Below are positions 3,880 through 60,966 of a stretch of DNA of 61,006 nt, in pieces; the stretch's first letter is position 1, and every line of letters starts with the position of its first letter. The DNA comes from Planctomycetaceae bacterium (GTDB taxonomy: Bacteria; Planctomycetota; Planctomycetia; Pirellulales; PALSA-1355): the NCBI GenBank assembly GCA_003153375.1, contig PLYM01000205.1:1-61006 (forward strand). Direction: 5' to 3'. The notes under the pieces are model-generated. The model was not told the origin of the DNA and ran no database searches. It saw only the letters and a program-made list of their open reading frames with translations. Position numbers and translations under genes: made by a program.

Positions 3880-4581
3880 ATGATCGACTTTTACCGTGGG
3901 CGGACGGGTTCGTGGTTTGCGGTGGCATCTTGCGCCACGGCCCTGCTGATTTCGGCCGCCGGCTGCGGCAAGACCGAACACATCGCCCACTATCGCGCCC
4001 CCAAGCCGGTGCCGATCGATCCGTTGCCGGAGCCAGACCCGCAAAATCCGCACGCCGGCATTGCCGGAGCGCCGGGCGGTCCGCCGGCCGAAGCCGCCCC
4101 GCCAACGGGCGAGCCGACCGATCGGATGCTGGCCGCCATCGTGCCAGCTGGCGAGAACTTCTGGTTTTTCAAGCTGATGGGAGCGAAGGATCCGGTCGCC
4201 GCTCAGAACGATAACTTTCTGACGCTGATCAAGAGCGTTCACTTCACGGCCGCCGGAGCGCCGCAATGGACGTTGCCCGCGGGCTGGACGGAACAACCGG
4301 CCACGGCGATGCGCTATGCGACGTTTGTGATTTCCGGCGAAGGCAAGCCGCTGGAAGTGACTGTTACGAAATTGCCGGGCACGAGTGGCGTGCTGGCCAA
4401 TGTGAATCGTTGGCGGGGGCAATTGCGATTGCCGCCGATCAGTCAGGAACAATTGTCGAGCGAGGCGACCCAAGTGCCGGTGGACGGGGCGACGGCGACC
4501 TTCGTGAATTTGCTAGGCACCGCGGCTCCCAATTCGATGGGACGCCCGCCCATGATGTCCGGAGGCCGCGATGGCAACTGA
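3880..4581 (+). CDS. Lipoprotein of unknown function, coupled to cytochrome c assembly gene
   Basis: The protein has 233 residues with a lipoprotein signal peptide: a basic start, a hydrophobic core and the lipobox SAAGC with Cys29 as lipidation site. After it comes a proline- and acid-rich linker (residues ~38-75), then a soluble domain of about 150 residues with TLPAGWTEQPATAMRYATFV and SGVLANVNRWRGQLRLPPIS. I do not know a named function. The gene overlaps the start of the ResB/CcsA fusion by 11 bases, and the Shine-Dalgarno of the fusion (GGAGG) lies inside this gene. The two are therefore almost certainly translated together, and the lipoprotein is probably a periplasmic helper or an associated membrane protein. 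Confidence 0.8.
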   Translation: MIDFYRGRTGSWFAVASCATALLISAAGCGKTEHIAHYRAPKPVPIDPLPEPDPQNPHAGIAGAPGGPPAEAAPPTGEPTDRMLAAIVPAGENFWFFKLMGAKDPVAAQNDNFLTLIKSVHFTAAGAPQWTLPAGWTEQPATAMRYATFVISGEGKPLEVTVTKLPGTSGVLANVNRWRGQLRLPPISQEQLSSEATQVPVDGATATFVNLLGTAAPNSMGRPPMMSGGRDGN

Positions 4582-52208: not shown

Positions 52209-54104
52209 ATGTCGGAAGCGATCCAACCCATGGCCCACGGCCATGCCGATGCCGATCTTTCGGGCCGGCAATTGGCCGGCTATCGCCTATTGCGGCGGTT
52301 GGGCCGGGGGGCGATGGCCGAGGTCTATCTGGCCGAGCAGCTTTCGCTGGCGCGGCAGGTCGCGGTCAAAGTGCTCCGCAGCACGCTGGCCACCGATGCC
52401 ACGTACGTGCAGCGTTTCGACCAGGAAGCCCGGGCGGCGGCCGGCCTGGTACACGCCAACATCGTGCAAATTCACGAAGTGGGCTGCGTCGACGGCATCC
52501 ACTTCATCGCCCAGGAATATGTGCAGGGCATGAACCTCGCCGAGCTGCTGGCTCGCAAGGGCTCGGGCGACGTCTCCAAATCGGTGACGATCGTGCGCCA
52601 CGTGGCCGCGGCGCTGTCGAAGGCGGCCGAGCAGGGCATCGTGCATCGCGATATCAAGCCCGAGAACATCATGCTCTCGGCCAGCGGCGACGTGAAGGTA
52701 GCCGATTTCGGGCTGGCCCGGTTCTATACCCAGGACGACGCCGGCAACCTGACGCAAGTGGGCGTCACGATGGGCACGCCGCTGTACATGAGCCCCGAGC
52801 AGGTGGAAGGCCGCGCGCTCGATCCGCGCAGCGACATCTATTCGCTGGGCGTCACCTGGTATCAGATGCTGGCGGGCGAGCCGCCGTTTCGCGGCGACAC
52901 GGCGCTGAGCATCGCCGTGCAGCACTTGAGCAGTCAGCCGCCGCGCCTGGAAAATATCCGGTCCGATTTGCCGTCGGCCGTCTGCCGTATCGTACACAAG
53001 ATGCTGGCCAAGAACCCCAGCGAGCGGCACGATTCGCCCCGCCAGCTGCTGGCTGAGTTGCGGGCCGTTTCGATCGATCTGTTTGGCGACGACCCGGGCG
53101 ACGAGTTCAGCGGTTGGGGTGGCGATCAGGTGGTTTCGACGGTCGAAGCCCGGCGACTGGCAACCGAGCGGTTGGGCTTGGCGATGCGCACCGCGGCCAT
53201 GCCGGCCGTGCGGCGCGGTGGCCGTTGGTGGGTTGCGGCGCTGGTGGGCGGCTTGCTCGTGGGCGTGGCGGCGGCCTGGGCCCTGCGCGAGCGGCCGTTG
53301 ATCACCGCCACGGCCGACGATGACGAGGCGGTCGAGCGCTACGATACGGCCGAAGCTCAATACGTCTACGCTTTCGTGCGCAACAGCGAAGCCGCCTGGA
53401 AGAGCGTCGGAGAATACTTTCCGGGCGACAAGAACTACACGCGCCGCGCGATGCAGGGTTTGGCGCTGCTCTATCTGCAAGACTACGACTACAAGCGGGC
53501 CGATGCGGTGTTTGATTCGTTGGCCCGGCTCAATGCGGTCGAGGTGCAGTTCGTCGCCTTTGGGCTGGCCGGCCAGGCCGTGGTGCTCAACCGGCAGGGC
53601 AAGTATCAGGAGTCTGCCCAAAAGCTGGCCGAGCTGTGGCCGTTGCGCGACAAGTTGGAAGGCGAGATGCGGCCGCTGGTGCGGCAAACGTTGCAGAGCA
53701 ACCGTCAATCGCTCGGCAATTCGAACACGCTGCGCGGCTGGACCCAATGGTTCCGCGACTCGACGCCTCCGCCCGCCCGTCGCCCCGGCGACCCCACTGG
53801 CGACCGCCCCGCGCCTCCCGATCGCCCGACCTCGCATCGGCCGCGTCCCTCGGATCGCCCCGGGGCCAACGTTTTACCCCCGCACCAGCGGCTGATTGTT
53901 GACCGCGCGCCGTCAGCGGTTGACAGCCCAGCCGCCGATTTGGTAGCACTTAACGACTGGCCTTCGTGCGTGCCGATCGTAGTGTGGCGTGTCCACCTTG
54001 CCCTCGTCCCGTCCCGCCGCGAACAAGGTAACTCCTTGCCGCCGGGCACTTTGGCCCGCTTTGCAACAACCGACAGCGAAAAAAAACCCGCCCCCATCGT
54101 CTAG
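52209..54104 (+). CDS. Membrane-tethered Ser/Thr protein kinase (PknB-like), ending inside a tRNA gene
   Basis: The protein has 631 residues. The Hanks-type kinase domain (~24-290) is complete: glycine loop LGRGAMAEVYLAEQ, Lys54 in VAVKVL, HRDIKPEN with Asp148, DFG with Asp166, YMSPEQ, and SDIYSLGVTWYQM. A membrane helix (~341-358) separates it from an extracellular helical part (~365-520), then a Pro/Arg/Asp-rich tail (PPPARRPGDPTGDRPAPPDR) and ~70 residues of unfamiliar sequence. The frame ends at a TAG inside the tRNA-Glu gene, overlapping it by 15 bases. That tail may be a later extension. The extracellular part probably senses an unknown signal. Confidence 0.9.
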   Translation: MSEAIQPMAHGHADADLSGRQLAGYRLLRRLGRGAMAEVYLAEQLSLARQVAVKVLRSTLATDATYVQRFDQEARAAAGLVHANIVQIHEVGCVDGIHFIAQEYVQGMNLAELLARKGSGDVSKSVTIVRHVAAALSKAAEQGIVHRDIKPENIMLSASGDVKVADFGLARFYTQDDAGNLTQVGVTMGTPLYMSPEQVEGRALDPRSDIYSLGVTWYQMLAGEPPFRGDTALSIAVQHLSSQPPRLENIRSDLPSAVCRIVHKMLAKNPSERHDSPRQLLAELRAVSIDLFGDDPGDEFSGWGGDQVVSTVEARRLATERLGLAMRTAAMPAVRRGGRWWVAALVGGLLVGVAAAWALRERPLITATADDDEAVERYDTAEAQYVYAFVRNSEAAWKSVGEYFPGDKNYTRRAMQGLALLYLQDYDYKRADAVFDSLARLNAVEVQFVAFGLAGQAVVLNRQGKYQESAQKLAELWPLRDKLEGEMRPLVRQTLQSNRQSLGNSNTLRGWTQWFRDSTPPPARRPGDPTGDRPAPPDRPTSHRPRPSDRPGANVLPPHQRLIVDRAPSAVDSPAADLVALNDWPSCVPIVVWRVHLALVPSRREQGNSLPPGTLARFATTDSEKKPAPIV

Positions 54105-54162
54105 TGGCCCAGGACGTCGGGTTCTCAGTCCGAAAACCGGGGTTCGACTCCCCGTGGGGGTA
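54090..54162 (+). tRNA. tRNA-Glu (anticodon CTC)
   Basis: The 73-base gene folds as a standard cloverleaf. The acceptor stem GCCCCCA pairs with TGGGGGT with one G-T pair at the end. The D arm has GTCTAGTGGCCCAGGAC as in bacterial tRNA-Glu. The anticodon stem is TCGGG/TCCGA around the loop TTCTCAG with anticodon CTC, and the T arm is CGGGG-TTCGACT-CCCCG. No CCA is encoded; CTG follows. The kinase gene overlaps its first 15 bases on the same strand and the integrase gene its last 38 bases on the other strand, which is the usual position of an integration site. Confidence 0.95.
54125..54162. other. Probable left attachment site inside tRNA-Glu
   Basis: Tyrosine integrases commonly insert elements at the 3' end of tRNA genes and leave the tRNA intact, with the integrase gene beside it. 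Here the integrase frame ends within the tRNA 3' half, so the attL core should be in this stretch or just before it. The matching direct repeat (attR) was looked for by eye to the end of the window and was not found. The exact core is therefore unknown. Confidence 0.5.
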
Positions 54163-55444
54163 CTGTACAAATTTTCACTAACTCGCTGGAAGCCGCTGCG
54201 AGCAGCAAAGGCTCCTGTTTTCCAGGGGCCTTTCGCAGTTTCTGCGATGTGGTGCCACTCTCTGCGGCAGCCTGCTGCGCCTGATTTTGCGCCCCCTGTG
54301 CGCCGGATTCTGCGCCGCTTTTTTCGACGGCACCTGTGGCGCGTTCAAAGTCAATCTCGGTCACTTGCAGATAGTGCCGAGCGGCGATTGGGGCCGAGTT
54401 GCCGAGCCACGCCACCACAACATGCAGCGGATGGTCTTGGGCCAGCTCCGTCTCCCTGCTGGCTCGTAAGTTTTGGAACAATCGGGGCCAAGTCATCAGT
54501 CCGGCCCGCGTCACGATCCGTTGGAATTGAGTCCGCAGATTGTTGCTGCCGCCACGGTGCGTGGACACCACAAATTCCGTCCCTGGCTCGGCAGCGTCGA
54601 AGACAGCTTCCAAGTATGGTCGCAGTTCGGTGAACAACGGGATCAGACGTGACTCGCCCCCCGCATGGTGTTCCGTCTTGGGGCTCTGGACGCAAATCTT
54701 CTGACGTTCCCAATCCACATCGCCCCATCGCAGGGCATATGTCTCCGAAGGCGTCCGCAAGCCGCCGTAGCGTGCCAGAGCGACGATCAGCCGCCACTCA
54801 GCATCCGGGCAGGCCGCAATGATCTTCTCTGTCGCCTCCCGCGTTACATAGAATTCCCGGCTCTTGTTCACCTGGGCCGCCGCTTTTACTTCGCCAAACG
54901 GATTCTCCGCGATCAGTCGCTTGCGCACGGCCGCACGAAGAAATTGCTTCGCCCGCTTTACGTTCCGACCAACCGTTGCCGCTGCCTGTCCGCGCCCAAC
55001 TTCGTGCGAGTGCCAGTCGTCGCAGTCGCCTGGAGTCAGGTCCGCCAGCGTCTTTTCATGGCCGAAAAAGTCGATCAAGATCCGCTCGGTCTGGCGGTAA
55101 TTCTTGAGCGTATTGGGCTTCTTGAGCTGCCGGCCGGAAATGTATTCGGCGATGAACGCGGCAAGCGTAATTGTCTGGGCCGCCGGCAGCCCCCGCTTGG
55201 GGATCAGTCCAACGGCCGCCAACTTGTTGGCCATCTTGGGGTCCAGGTCGGTCACCCATTTGGCCAAGTCTGCTTCCATCGACCGTCTGAGCATTACTGC
55301 TTCCAGCAATTGTTCCACGCGGTATTTGAACCCTTCGGCAGCGCGATTAGAGACCTTTCCCAACCGAATCGCCTCGCGCTCGCCATTCGGATTCACGAAC
55401 TGAATTCGTCGTCGCCCCCCCGGGTCGTTTGCAATACTCGCCAC
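54125..55444 (-). CDS. Tyrosine-type site-specific integrase
   Basis: The protein has 439 residues. The N-terminal arm-binding part (SIANDPGGRRRIQFVNPNGE, IRLGKVSNRAAE) and SAM-like core domain lead to the catalytic domain. Box I is ALARYGGLRTPSETYALRW with Arg230. The beta-hairpin lysine sits near SPKTEHH. Box II is reduced to LFQNLRASRETEL, with Arg327 or Arg330 and without the usual His. The nucleophile is Tyr358 in ARHYLQV after HVVVAWLGNS. The final ~13 residues (PPRGVEPRFSD end) are encoded by the antisense strand of tRNA-Glu. GTG 55444 is the start. It is the last gene of the element's minus-strand run and should integrate the element at this tRNA. Confidence 0.92.
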   Translation of the reverse strand: MASIANDPGGRRRIQFVNPNGEREAIRLGKVSNRAAEGFKYRVEQLLEAVMLRRSMEADLAKWVTDLDPKMANKLAAVGLIPKRGLPAAQTITLAAFIAEYISGRQLKKPNTLKNYRQTERILIDFFGHEKTLADLTPGDCDDWHSHEVGRGQAAATVGRNVKRAKQFLRAAVRKRLIAENPFGEVKAAAQVNKSREFYVTREATEKIIAACPDAEWRLIVALARYGGLRTPSETYALRWGDVDWERQKICVQSPKTEHHAGGESRLIPLFTELRPYLEAVFDAAEPGTEFVVSTHRGGSNNLRTQFQRIVTRAGLMTWPRLFQNLRASRETELAQDHPLHVVVAWLGNSAPIAARHYLQVTEIDFERATGAVEKSGAESGAQGAQNQAQQAAAESGTTSQKLRKAPGKQEPLLLAAASSELVKICTVPPRGVEPRFSD

Positions 55445-55600: not shown

Positions 55601-55981
55601 CTATCCGATCCCGTTCATTTCAGTGTTTTGCCCGTACCATACGGTGAAAAGGCTGATTCGCCCGCATTGGGCGCAATCGCGGCGGACGGACTGGCCGCGG
55701 TGGACTGACACATCGCGCCAGCTCGCCGAACCACACCTACAGACGGTCTTGACCACGGGCGAGACATTGGCCGTTGGCCTTGCTGCTGTCATAGTTGGAA
55801 CTGCACTTGGCACAGCCTGAAGCACCGCCAGTAGCTCGCCCTTGTGGGCCCTGAGCCGATCCATTAAGCCGACAGTCAGGGCGCCCCGTGGAGCGTTTAT
55901 GACCAAGCTGAAGTCGCCGCTGAGCTGGAGCCGGATATCGCGGGCCTCACAGTCGGCCAGTAGATCGACCAGTGTCGTCAC
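55601..55981 (-). CDS. TubC-like docking-fold protein with C-terminal zinc ribbon
   Basis: The protein has 126 residues. Residues 1-55 (LVDLLADCEARDIRLQLSGD, then INAPRGALTVGLMDRLRAHK and GELLAVLQ) fit the TubC N-terminal docking domain pattern: helix, beta strand with GD turn, a PxGALT strand start, and two helices ending in HKxELLAxL. In polyketide/peptide synthetases that domain docks megasynthase subunits. Residues 60-75 are a Pro/Ala linker. Residues 81-106 hold a C-x-C ... C-x2-C zinc ribbon (Cys81, 83, 103, 106). The gene overlaps the primase gene by 4 bases. Its role is more likely to assemble replication proteins than to make a natural product; this is inference. Confidence 0.75.
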   Translation of the reverse strand: MTTLVDLLADCEARDIRLQLSGDFSLVINAPRGALTVGLMDRLRAHKGELLAVLQAVPSAVPTMTAARPTANVSPVVKTVCRCGSASWRDVSVHRGQSVRRDCAQCGRISLFTVWYGQNTEMNGIG

Positions 55982-58107
55982 ACGATCACCTCCTCCCGAT
56001 CTTCATTCTCGGTGTGCTCGAAATCGTTCCCAATATTCCCAGAATCATCCTCTTCAGGTCTCTCGGCCGGATTACGGGAATTGTGGGAGCGCTTTTGCAA
56101 GTTCTCATCTGCGAAAATCGATGGATTCACTTCATAGGTTGGCGACGGGGGCCGTCCAGGCCCGCTTACTTGGGCTGGCCGCAATCGGATATACCCACGC
56201 CGAACCAGCTCATTTAATGCGGCGTCGATTGCATTTGCTTTGGGGAATCGTCGCTTGCCATGGTGCTGCGCTTCACTCTTGGTGAACTCTCGCCTCTTGT
56301 GGCGCTCGATCCATCGCAGCACGTAGCGGGCATCGTCATCCCCTGAATCCTCCTTTGCTTCCATCATTTCCAGAACGGCCTCGGCGTGCGGAACGAGATA
56401 CCGGGCGATCTCGATGGCCGCTTCGATAGTTGCAACACTGATGCATAACGAGGGATCGTGCTCCACACAGTGCAGCACGCCGGCCAGTCGAAGCGTCTCG
56501 CCGGCCAACTTCCCACCCCAGTCACGCATGATTTCCATATCGCCCCCTTCGGCGAGCATTCGTTCGATTTCAGCTTCCCACTTTCGAAACCTCGCTGACG
56601 CATCGGGAGTAAGTTCAATGAACCATTGGCCTTCAAATCGAGCCAAGTCGCGCACGACCTGTTGGTAGGCTTCGCGTACCACATCAGCCACCGGTTCAGG
56701 CGCAATCTGTCGACGTCCGATCCAGCTTTGAGGGCTCGCATACAGGAATCGGGCCAATAACCCGCGGCCACGAAAGGCCGCATTTTCGGCTAGACCAACT
56801 ATTACCTGAGGCTGCACCGCGTAAGCACACGTCAGCGCTGGGCGCTGAACATGCACCGACTTACGAGAAACTCGGTCGGTAATCATGTCGTCGCCACTGT
56901 GGCCCTTTAAGTACGCATCGAATTGGGCGATGCCGCTTTTGGAATACAAGCCGGCCATAAGGTCGTATACATTTCCCTCGGCCGACATACTCGCAATCCG
57001 TCCGCCTTGGTCTGCCAGCATCATGCACAACTTTTCGCTCGTAGCGTCATCGACAAGTAGCCGCGATGGAACGGGCTCGGGGCGCTCGGCTAGCGCCGCC
57101 GCTAGGTTGTTGGCTTCATATCTGGCTTCGGCGTCGCCCTTCTCGCCCGCTGCTTTTTCCAGTTTCCGCAGACGGCACTCGTCTTGTCGTCGCTCGGTTT
57201 GCGCGCATGCAATGATTGGCCTTTCAGCTTCGATTAACTCTGCTTCCAGATCCCGCAGCGGTCGCGTTGCATCCGCGAAGACAGCTGACTTGCGGTTAGC
57301 CGGTTCCAGCAATACGACTACGAATAAATTGACGGGCTCACGCCAGCTGGACCGCGGCATAACCTCCACCTTTCGGGCGATCGCGGCGGCGCACACAGCT
57401 AGGGACAGGAGGGCGGCAAGATCCAAAGGCGTTTGTGTAGCGTGTGATTCGGCTTCAACCCAGTCGCGCAAAACCGTAGGCAGCACTTCTGCTGGAAACT
57501 CTGGCAGTGTCGACTGATCGAACGAGTCAACTTCGGCCCAAGGCTTGTCTGCCAGAGTCGATGGGGACCAATCCGGCGTCGCTTCGATCAGCTGTTTCAA
57601 TTCGTCTTTTGTGCCGCCAGCCGCTATCCAATCGGTGATGTCCCCTTTCGGAGGTAAGCCGGGAAGATCAACAATGGTCACTGATGCCGCGATGCCATGT
57701 AACGTAACGGCGACTTGATGGGCGTGGTTACGCCCTGGTTCGTCGTTGTCGGGCAGCACGACAACTTGCCGGCCCCGCAGAAACTCCGCATGCTCGACTG
57801 TCCATTTCCCTGCCCCACCGGCATTGCAAGTCGCCAAAACGTCGATGCGGGCGAGGTTGTCCACGTCCTTTTCACCTTCGGCAACGACGGCTGGCCGGTC
57901 TGGTGCTGCAAGGAGTTCTGGCAGGCGGTAAATGAGGGTACGGACATCTTTAACTGACCACTGCCACGCACCCTTGCCACCGCCGGGCTTAGGTTTTCGC
58001 TGCCGAAAGGCTTTTGGTTCAGATCGCACGACCTGAAACACTAAATTCCCCGATTCGTCGCGGTAGTCGTACGTGGCGACGATCGAGGATTTGCGATTGC
58101 CAGTCAC
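55978..58107 (-). CDS. Primase-helicase-like protein with Toprim and DUF3987 domains
   Basis: The protein has 709 residues. A Toprim-type domain occupies ~70-130, with catalytic Glu77 in VVAEGEKDVDNLARI and the metal acids in VVVLPDNDEPG (Asp120, Asp122). The DUF3987 helicase-like part (~205-600) carries the degenerate P-loop LLEPANRKSAVFADATRPL, then SRLLVDDATSEKL, ASMSAEGNVYDLM, FRGRGLLARFLYASP and a C-terminal winged-helix-like SEAQHHGKRRFPKANAIDAALNEL region (shown in parts). It begins with GTG 58107, overlapping the zinc-binding gene by 4 bases. It lacks its own zinc finger, which is encoded separately just upstream. It should prime and unwind the element during replication. Confidence 0.88.
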   Translation of the reverse strand: MTGNRKSSIVATYDYRDESGNLVFQVVRSEPKAFRQRKPKPGGGKGAWQWSVKDVRTLIYRLPELLAAPDRPAVVAEGEKDVDNLARIDVLATCNAGGAGKWTVEHAEFLRGRQVVVLPDNDEPGRNHAHQVAVTLHGIAASVTIVDLPGLPPKGDITDWIAAGGTKDELKQLIEATPDWSPSTLADKPWAEVDSFDQSTLPEFPAEVLPTVLRDWVEAESHATQTPLDLAALLSLAVCAAAIARKVEVMPRSSWREPVNLFVVVLLEPANRKSAVFADATRPLRDLEAELIEAERPIIACAQTERRQDECRLRKLEKAAGEKGDAEARYEANNLAAALAERPEPVPSRLLVDDATSEKLCMMLADQGGRIASMSAEGNVYDLMAGLYSKSGIAQFDAYLKGHSGDDMITDRVSRKSVHVQRPALTCAYAVQPQVIVGLAENAAFRGRGLLARFLYASPQSWIGRRQIAPEPVADVVREAYQQVVRDLARFEGQWFIELTPDASARFRKWEAEIERMLAEGGDMEIMRDWGGKLAGETLRLAGVLHCVEHDPSLCISVATIEAAIEIARYLVPHAEAVLEMMEAKEDSGDDDARYVLRWIERHKRREFTKSEAQHHGKRRFPKANAIDAALNELVRRGYIRLRPAQVSGPGRPPSPTYEVNPSIFADENLQKRSHNSRNPAERPEEDDSGNIGNDFEHTENEDREEVIV

Positions 58108-58409
58108 ATTGGCAACGGGGGGGGGGACTTCAGGTGCTCAGCCGCCAAGCGAATCGCATCGACAAGGGAAACGCCTTGATGCCAGGCCACTGCCGATAGC
58201 CAATCGCCATTTCCCTTTGAGAAGCACTTCCGGCAGAGCACCGCACCAGCTGCGGCATCAATTAGCGAGAACCTATCTGTCCCCCCGCACTTCGGGCAGG
58301 GATGCCCACGCCCGTCGAGCAATTCGACGGGGATGCTGCCAAGGGTAGTTAGCAGTTCTGTTTCGCGGCCCTTTGCCAGGGATTTGAGTCTGTCAATCGA
58401 GGAGGTCAT
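58104..58409 (-). CDS. Primase zinc-binding domain protein
   Basis: The protein has 101 residues. It matches the zinc-binding domain that normally sits at the N-terminus of phage and plasmid primase-helicases: CPKCGGTDRFSLID (Cys38, Cys41) and VLCRKCFSKGNGDWLSAVAW (Cys59, Cys62). A helix follows (SLVDAIRLAAEHL). The C-terminus is Ser-Pro-Pro-Pro-Leu-Pro-Met, encoded across a run of ten C. The gene ends in the overlap with the Toprim/DUF3987 gene. Physically this is the missing front part of that primase. A -1 slip on the C-run would join both into one polypeptide of about 810 residues. Confidence 0.85.
   Translation of the reverse strand: MTSSIDRLKSLAKGRETELLTTLGSIPVELLDGRGHPCPKCGGTDRFSLIDAAAGAVLCRKCFSKGNGDWLSAVAWHQGVSLVDAIRLAAEHLKSPPPLPM
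58117..58126 (-). other. Run of ten C (ten G on plus strand), possible slippage site
   Basis: The homopolymer lies ten bases before the stop codon of the zinc-binding gene (between 58126 and 58104). Reading one base back on it leads without a stop codon into the frame of the Toprim/DUF3987 gene. This may be a programmed frameshift or transcriptional slippage site, or a mutated or miscounted homopolymer in a formerly single gene. Confidence 0.6.
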
Positions 58410-58415
58410 CGGAAT

Positions 58416-58616
58416 TCAACCCCCTTGCCGTTGTGATTCGATCCAGTTTTGCAGATCAACTACAGAGTATCGGACCAGTCGACCACAACGGATGTACGGC
58501 AGCCCCGGTTGCTCTTCAAACGTCATCGCCCACAATTTCCGGGGTGACACAGCCAGTAATCGTGAGGTCTCCCTGGGGTTCACCAACAGAGAGGGGTTTA
58601 TGCCTTGTGCCTGCAT
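58416..58616 (-). CDS. AlpA/excisionase-like helix-turn-helix protein
   Basis: The protein has 66 residues and resembles the small MerR-like HTH proteins (AlpA, Xis, HTH_17) that control excision or expression of integrated elements. LLVNPRETSRLLAVSPRKLW is the helix-turn-helix, PGLPYIRCGRLVRYSVVDLQ the wing with the conserved R-Y-S-x-x-D-L motif, and NWIESQRQGG the last helix. It lies six bases before the primase zinc-binding gene and so shares its transcript. AAGGGG precedes the start. Repeated TTCGGAA-type sequences upstream are candidate binding sites. Confidence 0.85.
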   Translation of the reverse strand: MQAQGINPSLLVNPRETSRLLAVSPRKLWAMTFEEQPGLPYIRCGRLVRYSVVDLQNWIESQRQGG

Positions 58617-60209: not shown

Positions 60210-60719
60210 TCAGCGAAGTGGCGGCACCCCCGAGGTGGGCTTGCGCGCGACGTATTTTTTGGTTATAGTTGGCCCTGTCTTCTGATCGAGTTTTATAACG
60301 GGGTAAAAATACTGATAGTCCCCGTTGTCATCCTCAAACGCCACAGTTAATTGTACTGAGCCGCTTGTACCAGTTGGATACCGCTTCCACACGTAGTAAG
60401 TACGCGACCCATACGTTCCGACCGGCACCCCATCAACCTCTAATATGACGTCGTCCTTTACCAGCCCCCCTTTTTCTGCGGCCGTTCCAGGGCCCACGGC
60501 AGAAATCAAGAGGCCTGGCGCGAAGTCGCAGTCGTCACTGTAGCTACCCTCAACACCTAATAACAGCGTTACGCTCGTAAAGTCGTCGTCGGTGTATCGG
60601 GCTAGGTGACGCGTTTGGCTCTCTGAATGCGCGCGATCAGTCGGCTTGGCCGGCTGGTCAGAGAAGACGGACGATACAATACTCAAATGCATCATTACAA
60701 CCACACAAATAAACCGCAT
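60210..60719 (-). CDS. Secreted PDZ-domain protein
   Basis: The protein has 169 residues. A signal peptide (FICVVVMMHLSIVSSVFS) is followed by a spacer and one PDZ domain (~55-140): LLISAVGPGTAAEKGGLVKD, DVILEVDGVPVGTYGSR, and a final strand GSVQLTVAFEDDNGDYQY. No protease domain is attached, so it should bind peptide ends or act as a scaffold in the periplasm. ATG 60719 has GGAGATG upstream; a TTG at 60755 in the same frame is less likely. The gene is 16 bases downstream of another PDZ-coding stretch and probably arose by duplication. Confidence 0.75.
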   Translation of the reverse strand: MRFICVVVMMHLSIVSSVFSDQPAKPTDRAHSESQTRHLARYTDDDFTSVTLLLGVEGSYSDDCDFAPGLLISAVGPGTAAEKGGLVKDDVILEVDGVPVGTYGSRTYYVWKRYPTGTSGSVQLTVAFEDDNGDYQYFYPVIKLDQKTGPTITKKYVARKPTSGVPPLR

Positions 60720-60735
60720 CAGTACATCTCCGTAA

Positions 60736-60966
60736 TTAAGGGTTTGCTTTGTCAAGCGCCACGGTGACAGTCTTGGGGATGTTTGAATCCTTAGGTAAGA
60801 TGGTAAGATTCACCGTTCCCGTCTTTGATGCATTCAGCACGCGCCAAAGCACCCAATGGGCGTTGTTGCGATTTCCAACAGGGTGACCGTCGACATCTGT
60901 GATCGTATCGCCTAATTGCAAGTGTGCCTTAGCGGCCGCAGATTGAGGCGCGACGAACGCAACCAA
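60736..60966 (-). CDS. PDZ-domain protein fragment, 5' part missing or disrupted
   Basis: Seventy-six residues form most of a PDZ domain: VAFVAPQSAAAKAHLQLGDT, ITDVDGHPVGNRNN and TGTVNLTILPKDSN. The open frame starts after an in-frame TAA at 60993-60991, only eight codons before the TTG used here. There is no signal peptide, unlike its neighbour. Either an upstream part exists in another frame (frameshift), or the gene has decayed, or a short cytoplasmic PDZ is made. The window ends 40 bases further on, so this cannot be settled here. Confidence 0.5.
   Translation of the reverse strand: MVAFVAPQSAAAKAHLQLGDTITDVDGHPVGNRNNAHWVLWRVLNASKTGTVNLTILPKDSNIPKTVTVALDKANP

Follow-up and report, generated by a model that had tools for sequence, protein, structure and literature searches.

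The window, that is, the whole 61-kb stretch of DNA that was analysed, belongs to a draft genome of 291 contigs and contains an integrative element whose integrase adjoins a tRNA-Glu gene, as in tRNA-inserted integrative elements. The primase locus of this element, read on the minus strand, is divided between two open reading frames (ORFs) that meet next to a run of ten C's. The features of the locus are the following:

54090–54163, plus strand: tRNA-Glu (CTC) that overlaps the end of the integrase; probable site of insertion
54125–55444, minus strand: the element's tyrosine integrase, with 50% identity to the integrase of a related element (L297)
55601–55981, minus strand: TubC_N-like small ORF between primase and integrase (Pfam)
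55978–58107, minus strand: Toprim and DUF3987 primase/helicase ORF, 709 aa (ORF call, Pfam, PHROG)
58010–58116, minus strand: stable predicted RNA structure directly 3′ of the C10 run (folding against shuffles)
58104–58107, minus strand: GTGA, the stop TGA overlapping the next start GTG (bases, ORF call)
58104–58409, minus strand: zinc-ribbon ORF, 101 aa, primase N-terminal module (ORF call, PF08273)
58117–58126, minus strand: C10 run where the frame breaks (base listing and run search)
58416–58616, minus strand: HTH_17-type small ORF (E 3.8e-5; sub-threshold at 24.3 bits, cut-off 27)

Zinc ribbon, Toprim and DUF3987 are all present in the window, and they do not lie on one polypeptide as is the rule for Zn-ribbon/Toprim primase-helicases. 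The zinc-ribbon ORF matches PF08273 (Zn_Ribbon_Prim, E 5.1e-8) and has a CxxC...CxxC zinc ribbon of the primase type, with cysteines at positions 38, 41, 59 and 62. In the 709-aa ORF, we found DUF3987 (PF13148, E 1e-93), whose helicase part also matches phrog_2373 (DNA helicase), and matches to the PHROG primases 239 and 6088. Toprim (PF13155) was detected at 22.9 bits when residues 1–186 were scanned alone, barely above the cut-off of 22.1. The HTH_17-type ORF precedes the zinc ORF by 6 bases, and an HTH-like sequence is also seen by eye 5′ of the primase in two related loci (L036 and L297).

The zinc-ribbon ORF ends at a TGA (58106–58104), with the C10 run near its end, and the 709-aa ORF begins with a GTG at 58107 in the −1 frame relative to it. 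The last stop before this GTG in the downstream frame is at 58140, 5′ of the run, so that the downstream frame reads without a stop from the run into the 709-aa ORF. The initial annotation had described a C10 run on the minus strand just before the first stop, a four-base overlap with a −1 change of frame between the zinc and Toprim/DUF3987 ORFs, and a stop-free path from the run to the GTG. Our analysis agrees on all of this: ten C's were counted at 58126–58117, the GTGA follows from the ORF coordinates, and the listing of stops by frame gives the same open path. As to the overlap itself, TGA accounts for 66% of the stop triplets in the window and 72% of all its TGA triplets are preceded by A, G or T, which places a start-type codon in the −1 frame; a four-base overlap is thus nearly automatic and constitutes weak evidence. 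No ribosome-binding sequence was seen by eye in the bases 5′ of the GTG. The window copy retains, in frame, 10 residues N-terminal to the matched Toprim stretch. The break is located in the variable linker between the zinc ribbon and Toprim, and both domains therefore survive whole.

We then considered the run itself. It is the sole C or G run of at least 8 in the window, where C8 gives three matches, overlapping and all inside the C10 run. At least three C8 matches were also present in 46 of 100 dinucleotide shuffles of the window, so a C8 in 61 kb is not unusual. On both strands of the 6.7-Mb draft genome, exact C8, C9 and C10 runs occur 34, 7 and 5 times, respectively, and there are no C runs of 11 or more. 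It is very unlikely that a break in the primase frame would fall by coincidence on one of only five genomic C10 runs, which makes the run its likely cause. A frame-break test applied to 42 of the 46 C8–C10 runs, weak as a genome-wide test because many of these runs lie outside clear genes, flagged three, and by eye only the primase run joins real gene parts. With this one convincing case among the 42 runs tested, we rejected an assembly that breaks many genes at C runs. Another C10 run of the source genome (L061, G000:C28:7948–7957) is found right where a 440-codon open frame begins; by eye, this frame resembles an FAD-dependent enzyme, and the run is perhaps 5′ of its true start.

Toprim loci were collected by genome searches (relatives, class, order and family), one named-genome scan and one viral-contig scan. 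The relatives were the best 80 of 499 and the best 80 of 564 in two scans, and each genome search contributed at most 30 loci. This yielded 225 loci, own copy left out, of which 23 were duplicates; since only best matches were kept, the 202 distinct loci represent nearest relatives and no random sample. By a mechanical criterion (at least 60 aa in frame), 195 of the 202 have an N-terminal extension, four are at a contig end and three are shorter (L209, L086 and L028). All 19 relatives with at least 60% identity to the window Toprim carry the extension. A C or G run of at least 8 was found in none of the 202 within the 400 bases preceding the start of the match and the first 30 following it, as far as each locus reaches. 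The most similar relatives, L266, L267 and L268, show 75, 74 and 73% identity (69–71% over 200 residues) and have a zinc module and Toprim in one frame, as do L102 (71% identity), L036/L271, L287 and L293. L102 (3719–5963) has an out-of-frame break inside Toprim, by eye deleting part of the domain, which indicates that primases of such elements do decay.

The initial annotation had named homologues split without a homopolymer as an observation that would count against slippage at the run. Among the relatives examined, such a split at the zinc/Toprim joint was seen only in the distant L086. In L086 (an Agathobaculum record), the zinc motif is in the same frame as Toprim, with an in-frame stop between them. 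Two further splits, in L050 and L057, are inside Toprim and do not share the joint. These two zinc-ribbon primase loci (G266:C1 and G096:C57) come from two genomes of one genus and are split out of frame at the same place, with an ATG in the overlap and, by eye, a GAAAGG stretch before it; L039 and L049, from the same genus, are long single frames. L050 and L057 are possibly a real two-gene Toprim.

Copies of the element itself were also sought. No near-identical copy was found in viral contigs with a pattern across the run that allowed variable length; four genomes of the family gave the own copy and one piece at 68% DNA identity (G002), and the element copy is absent from the single other genome of the genus examined.

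When the zinc ORF was used as query, a match was obtained in 42 of the 397 class genomes, among them the window's own. Among the best 30 loci, one is the window; 18 of the 29 others have a Toprim/DUF3987 match in the zinc frame, two have it out of frame (L050 and L057), eight have no match and one has a stray match. A search with zinc patterns in 182 loci found the pattern in frame in 107, at the edge in 8 and in another frame or ORF in 7, and none in 60; six of the seven in another frame or ORF look like chance by eye, and L086 looks real. Typed with module patterns of our own making, 178 distinct loci comprise 103 with a CxxH-type zinc module, two with a CPxCGG zinc ribbon like that of the window, 53 with a non-zinc module and 20 that are other or too short. 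The window's zinc type is in frame with Toprim in L287 and L293. The same Toprim part is thus preceded by at least three modules (CxxH zinc, CPxCGG zinc ribbon and a non-zinc "GS..HE..GGG"), and the module joints lie near the linker that holds the window's break, an arrangement of module swapping. Among the relatives examined, none is known to pair the window's exact zinc type with a closely similar DUF3987 region.

The nearest known systems are planctomycete integrative-element primase-helicases with DUF3987 (L297/L266, L002, L003 and L004), which are 65–75% identical to the window over Toprim and DUF3987. Unlike the window, they have a CxxH (CHC2-like) zinc module in frame and lack the C run. 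L297 (G163; 75% identity over Toprim) also has TubC_N, an integrase and a tRNA alongside its primase, and its gene order, HTH-like (by eye), primase, TubC_N, integrase and tRNA-Val, is that of the window element. Its primase is one frame, an 806-codon ORF if the earliest start codon is used, although initiation may really occur a few codons in. The small ORF at 4094–4519 of L297 has no Pfam match. L036/L271 (G192) shares with the window the zinc-ribbon type (50%), Toprim (70%) and an HTH-like ORF directly upstream (by eye), but it is a single 859-codon frame without the run, and no DUF3987 match was obtained in the 612 aa scanned.

Directly 3′ of the run, folding predicts a 7-bp stem, a loop holding the stop/start and then a longer stem. 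This region, picked post hoc, has a z of −3.91, and none of 200 shuffles reached its stability; in a second estimate with 60 shuffles, its z was −4.76, below all 21 related loci tested. For these 21 loci (two duplicate pairs included), the equivalent region, set by a fixed offset, has a mean z of −0.55 and a lowest value of −3.77 (L087). Along the primase gene, 39 folding windows gave a mean z of −0.28 and a lowest of −3.21. The first stem lies in the linker of the window copy only, 0 bases from the run, and the second lies in conserved codons, with a similar core stem predicted in L066, L024 and L102.

From the sequence, we consider it probable (roughly 0.8) that an ancestrally single primase-helicase was broken here by a change in run length, either a slippage indel or an assembly miscount. 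The integrative element beside the tRNA-Glu would have carried one gene, zinc ribbon, Toprim and DUF3987 in this order, and a length change of the C run in the linker would have left the halves in different frames. The length may have changed in the organism itself, through an indel from replication slippage, or only in the draft, where the assembly may have miscounted the run; the sequence fits both. If the indel is real, one may speculate that the 709-aa part would be produced by termination-reinitiation at the GTGA, giving a zinc protein and a zinc-less primase-helicase. A recent frameshift was one of the two readings of the initial annotation, and it is the one favoured by the relatives, which are in frame without a C or G run, the break at the joint being confined to the window copy. 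For frame breaks that are singletons and have BLAST support, the authors of GeneTack anticipate either a sequencing error or a recent indel as the cause (PMC3711429). We infer a fused ancestor of the window copy; its reconstruction joins relatives that share the Toprim/DUF3987 part to others that share the zinc and Toprim parts, no relative examined being known to unite this exact zinc type and a closely similar DUF3987. A near-identical copy that would display the unbroken state directly was not found in the viral contigs, the family or the genus genome. The stable hairpin abutting the run in the window copy is a point against an ordinary frame break, and since both halves are otherwise undamaged, two separate functional proteins, or a functional product of recoding, are possible.

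Recoding would here mean a programmed −1 frameshift, through a ribosomal slip with the hairpin or through transcriptional slippage, that yields the zinc protein and a full-length primase. It was the other reading of the initial annotation, and the C10 run, the −1 geometry, the open frame and the stable hairpin directly 3′ of the run all fit it. However, the slippery run and the split are absent from the 202 relatives, and such lack of conservation leaves a programmed switch unsupported. The equivalent region in relatives is mostly not unusually stable, and the position of the second stem in conserved codons, together with the similar core stem in three relatives, also argues against this reading. 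Ribosomal slips usually have a spacer of more than 0 bases between the slippery site and the stem, and a stem 0 bases after the run is tighter than this. Transcriptional slippage is considered unlikely in view of PMC5574713, which reports insertions during transcription in E. coli and Buchnera only in A/T runs and none in G/C runs; most of the runs it describes consist of A or T and none exceeds 9 to 11 bases, so that long C runs are hardly tested there. Among the matches listed in a literature search on programmed frameshifting and primase, no primase with a programmed frameshift was seen in the titles and opening lines of the abstracts. We regard this reading as very improbable. A newly arisen −1 ribosomal frameshift in which the stop/start hairpin sets the ratio of zinc protein, zinc-less and full-length primase-helicase would amount to a long/short pair like that of T7 gp4 made by recoding, and is slightly less probable again.

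A run of ten bases is of typical length for a phase-variable poly-C or poly-G tract, and the one described here is located where switching would be tolerated. Frequent length changes could then switch a population between fused and split primase, and poly-C/poly-G tracts are indeed given as known slipped-strand switches in the quoted part of PMC3711429. Against this, the tract is kept in 0 of the 202 relatives, and a second copy with another length was not found in the viral contigs, the family or the genus genome, which makes phase variation unlikely. The split could also be an established state, in which the zinc and Toprim/DUF3987 proteins are coupled at the overlap as a stable two-gene primase. 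The GTGA overlap and the two complete domains agree with such an arrangement, and so do the natural forms of phage T7 gp4 with and without the zinc domain, in the extract of PMC9198812 used here; but such an overlap would mostly be expected by chance, a ribosome-binding sequence before the GTG was not seen by eye, and among the relatives examined the joint is split only in the distant L086. This was judged the least probable of the readings, and highly improbable in itself.

Like the window locus, T7 gp4 has a zinc domain, Toprim and a helicase. The same extract describes a 63-kDa form and a zinc-less 56-kDa form, the latter helicase-active and unable to make primers (PMC9198812). Unlike the window locus, gp4 has no frame break: its gene is intact, and both forms arise from it through an alternative start (codon 64). 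By analogy with the zinc-less form, which keeps its helicase, the split gene of the window might still be partly functional. Genes with poly-A/T slippage, of which T. thermophilus dnaX, mxiE and IS transposases are named in the excerpt of PMC1088944 consulted, resemble the window, as far as this excerpt describes them, in having a homopolymer at an ORF junction. In the window, by contrast, the run is of C's and unconserved, and slippage is putative.

Taken as an ordinary frame break at a homopolymer, in a gene of a mobile element and in a draft assembly, the locus has little significance as it stands, and calls for caution when "split" primases are counted. If recoding were true, the locus would offer a new route to long and short primase forms of the T7 type and an example of C-run frameshifting in a planctomycete.

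In the rest of the element, TubC_N, a docking domain, is an odd neighbour for a primase and an integrase, and it is kept in the related element L297. No attachment repeat was found: searches with 14-mers of the tRNA-Glu gave no same-strand repeat in the window, whose contig ends at 61006, so that the far border of the element is out of view. Near this end, two adjacent ORFs occupy 60210–60966; the first (60210–60755) matches PDZ, and the second looks similar by eye.
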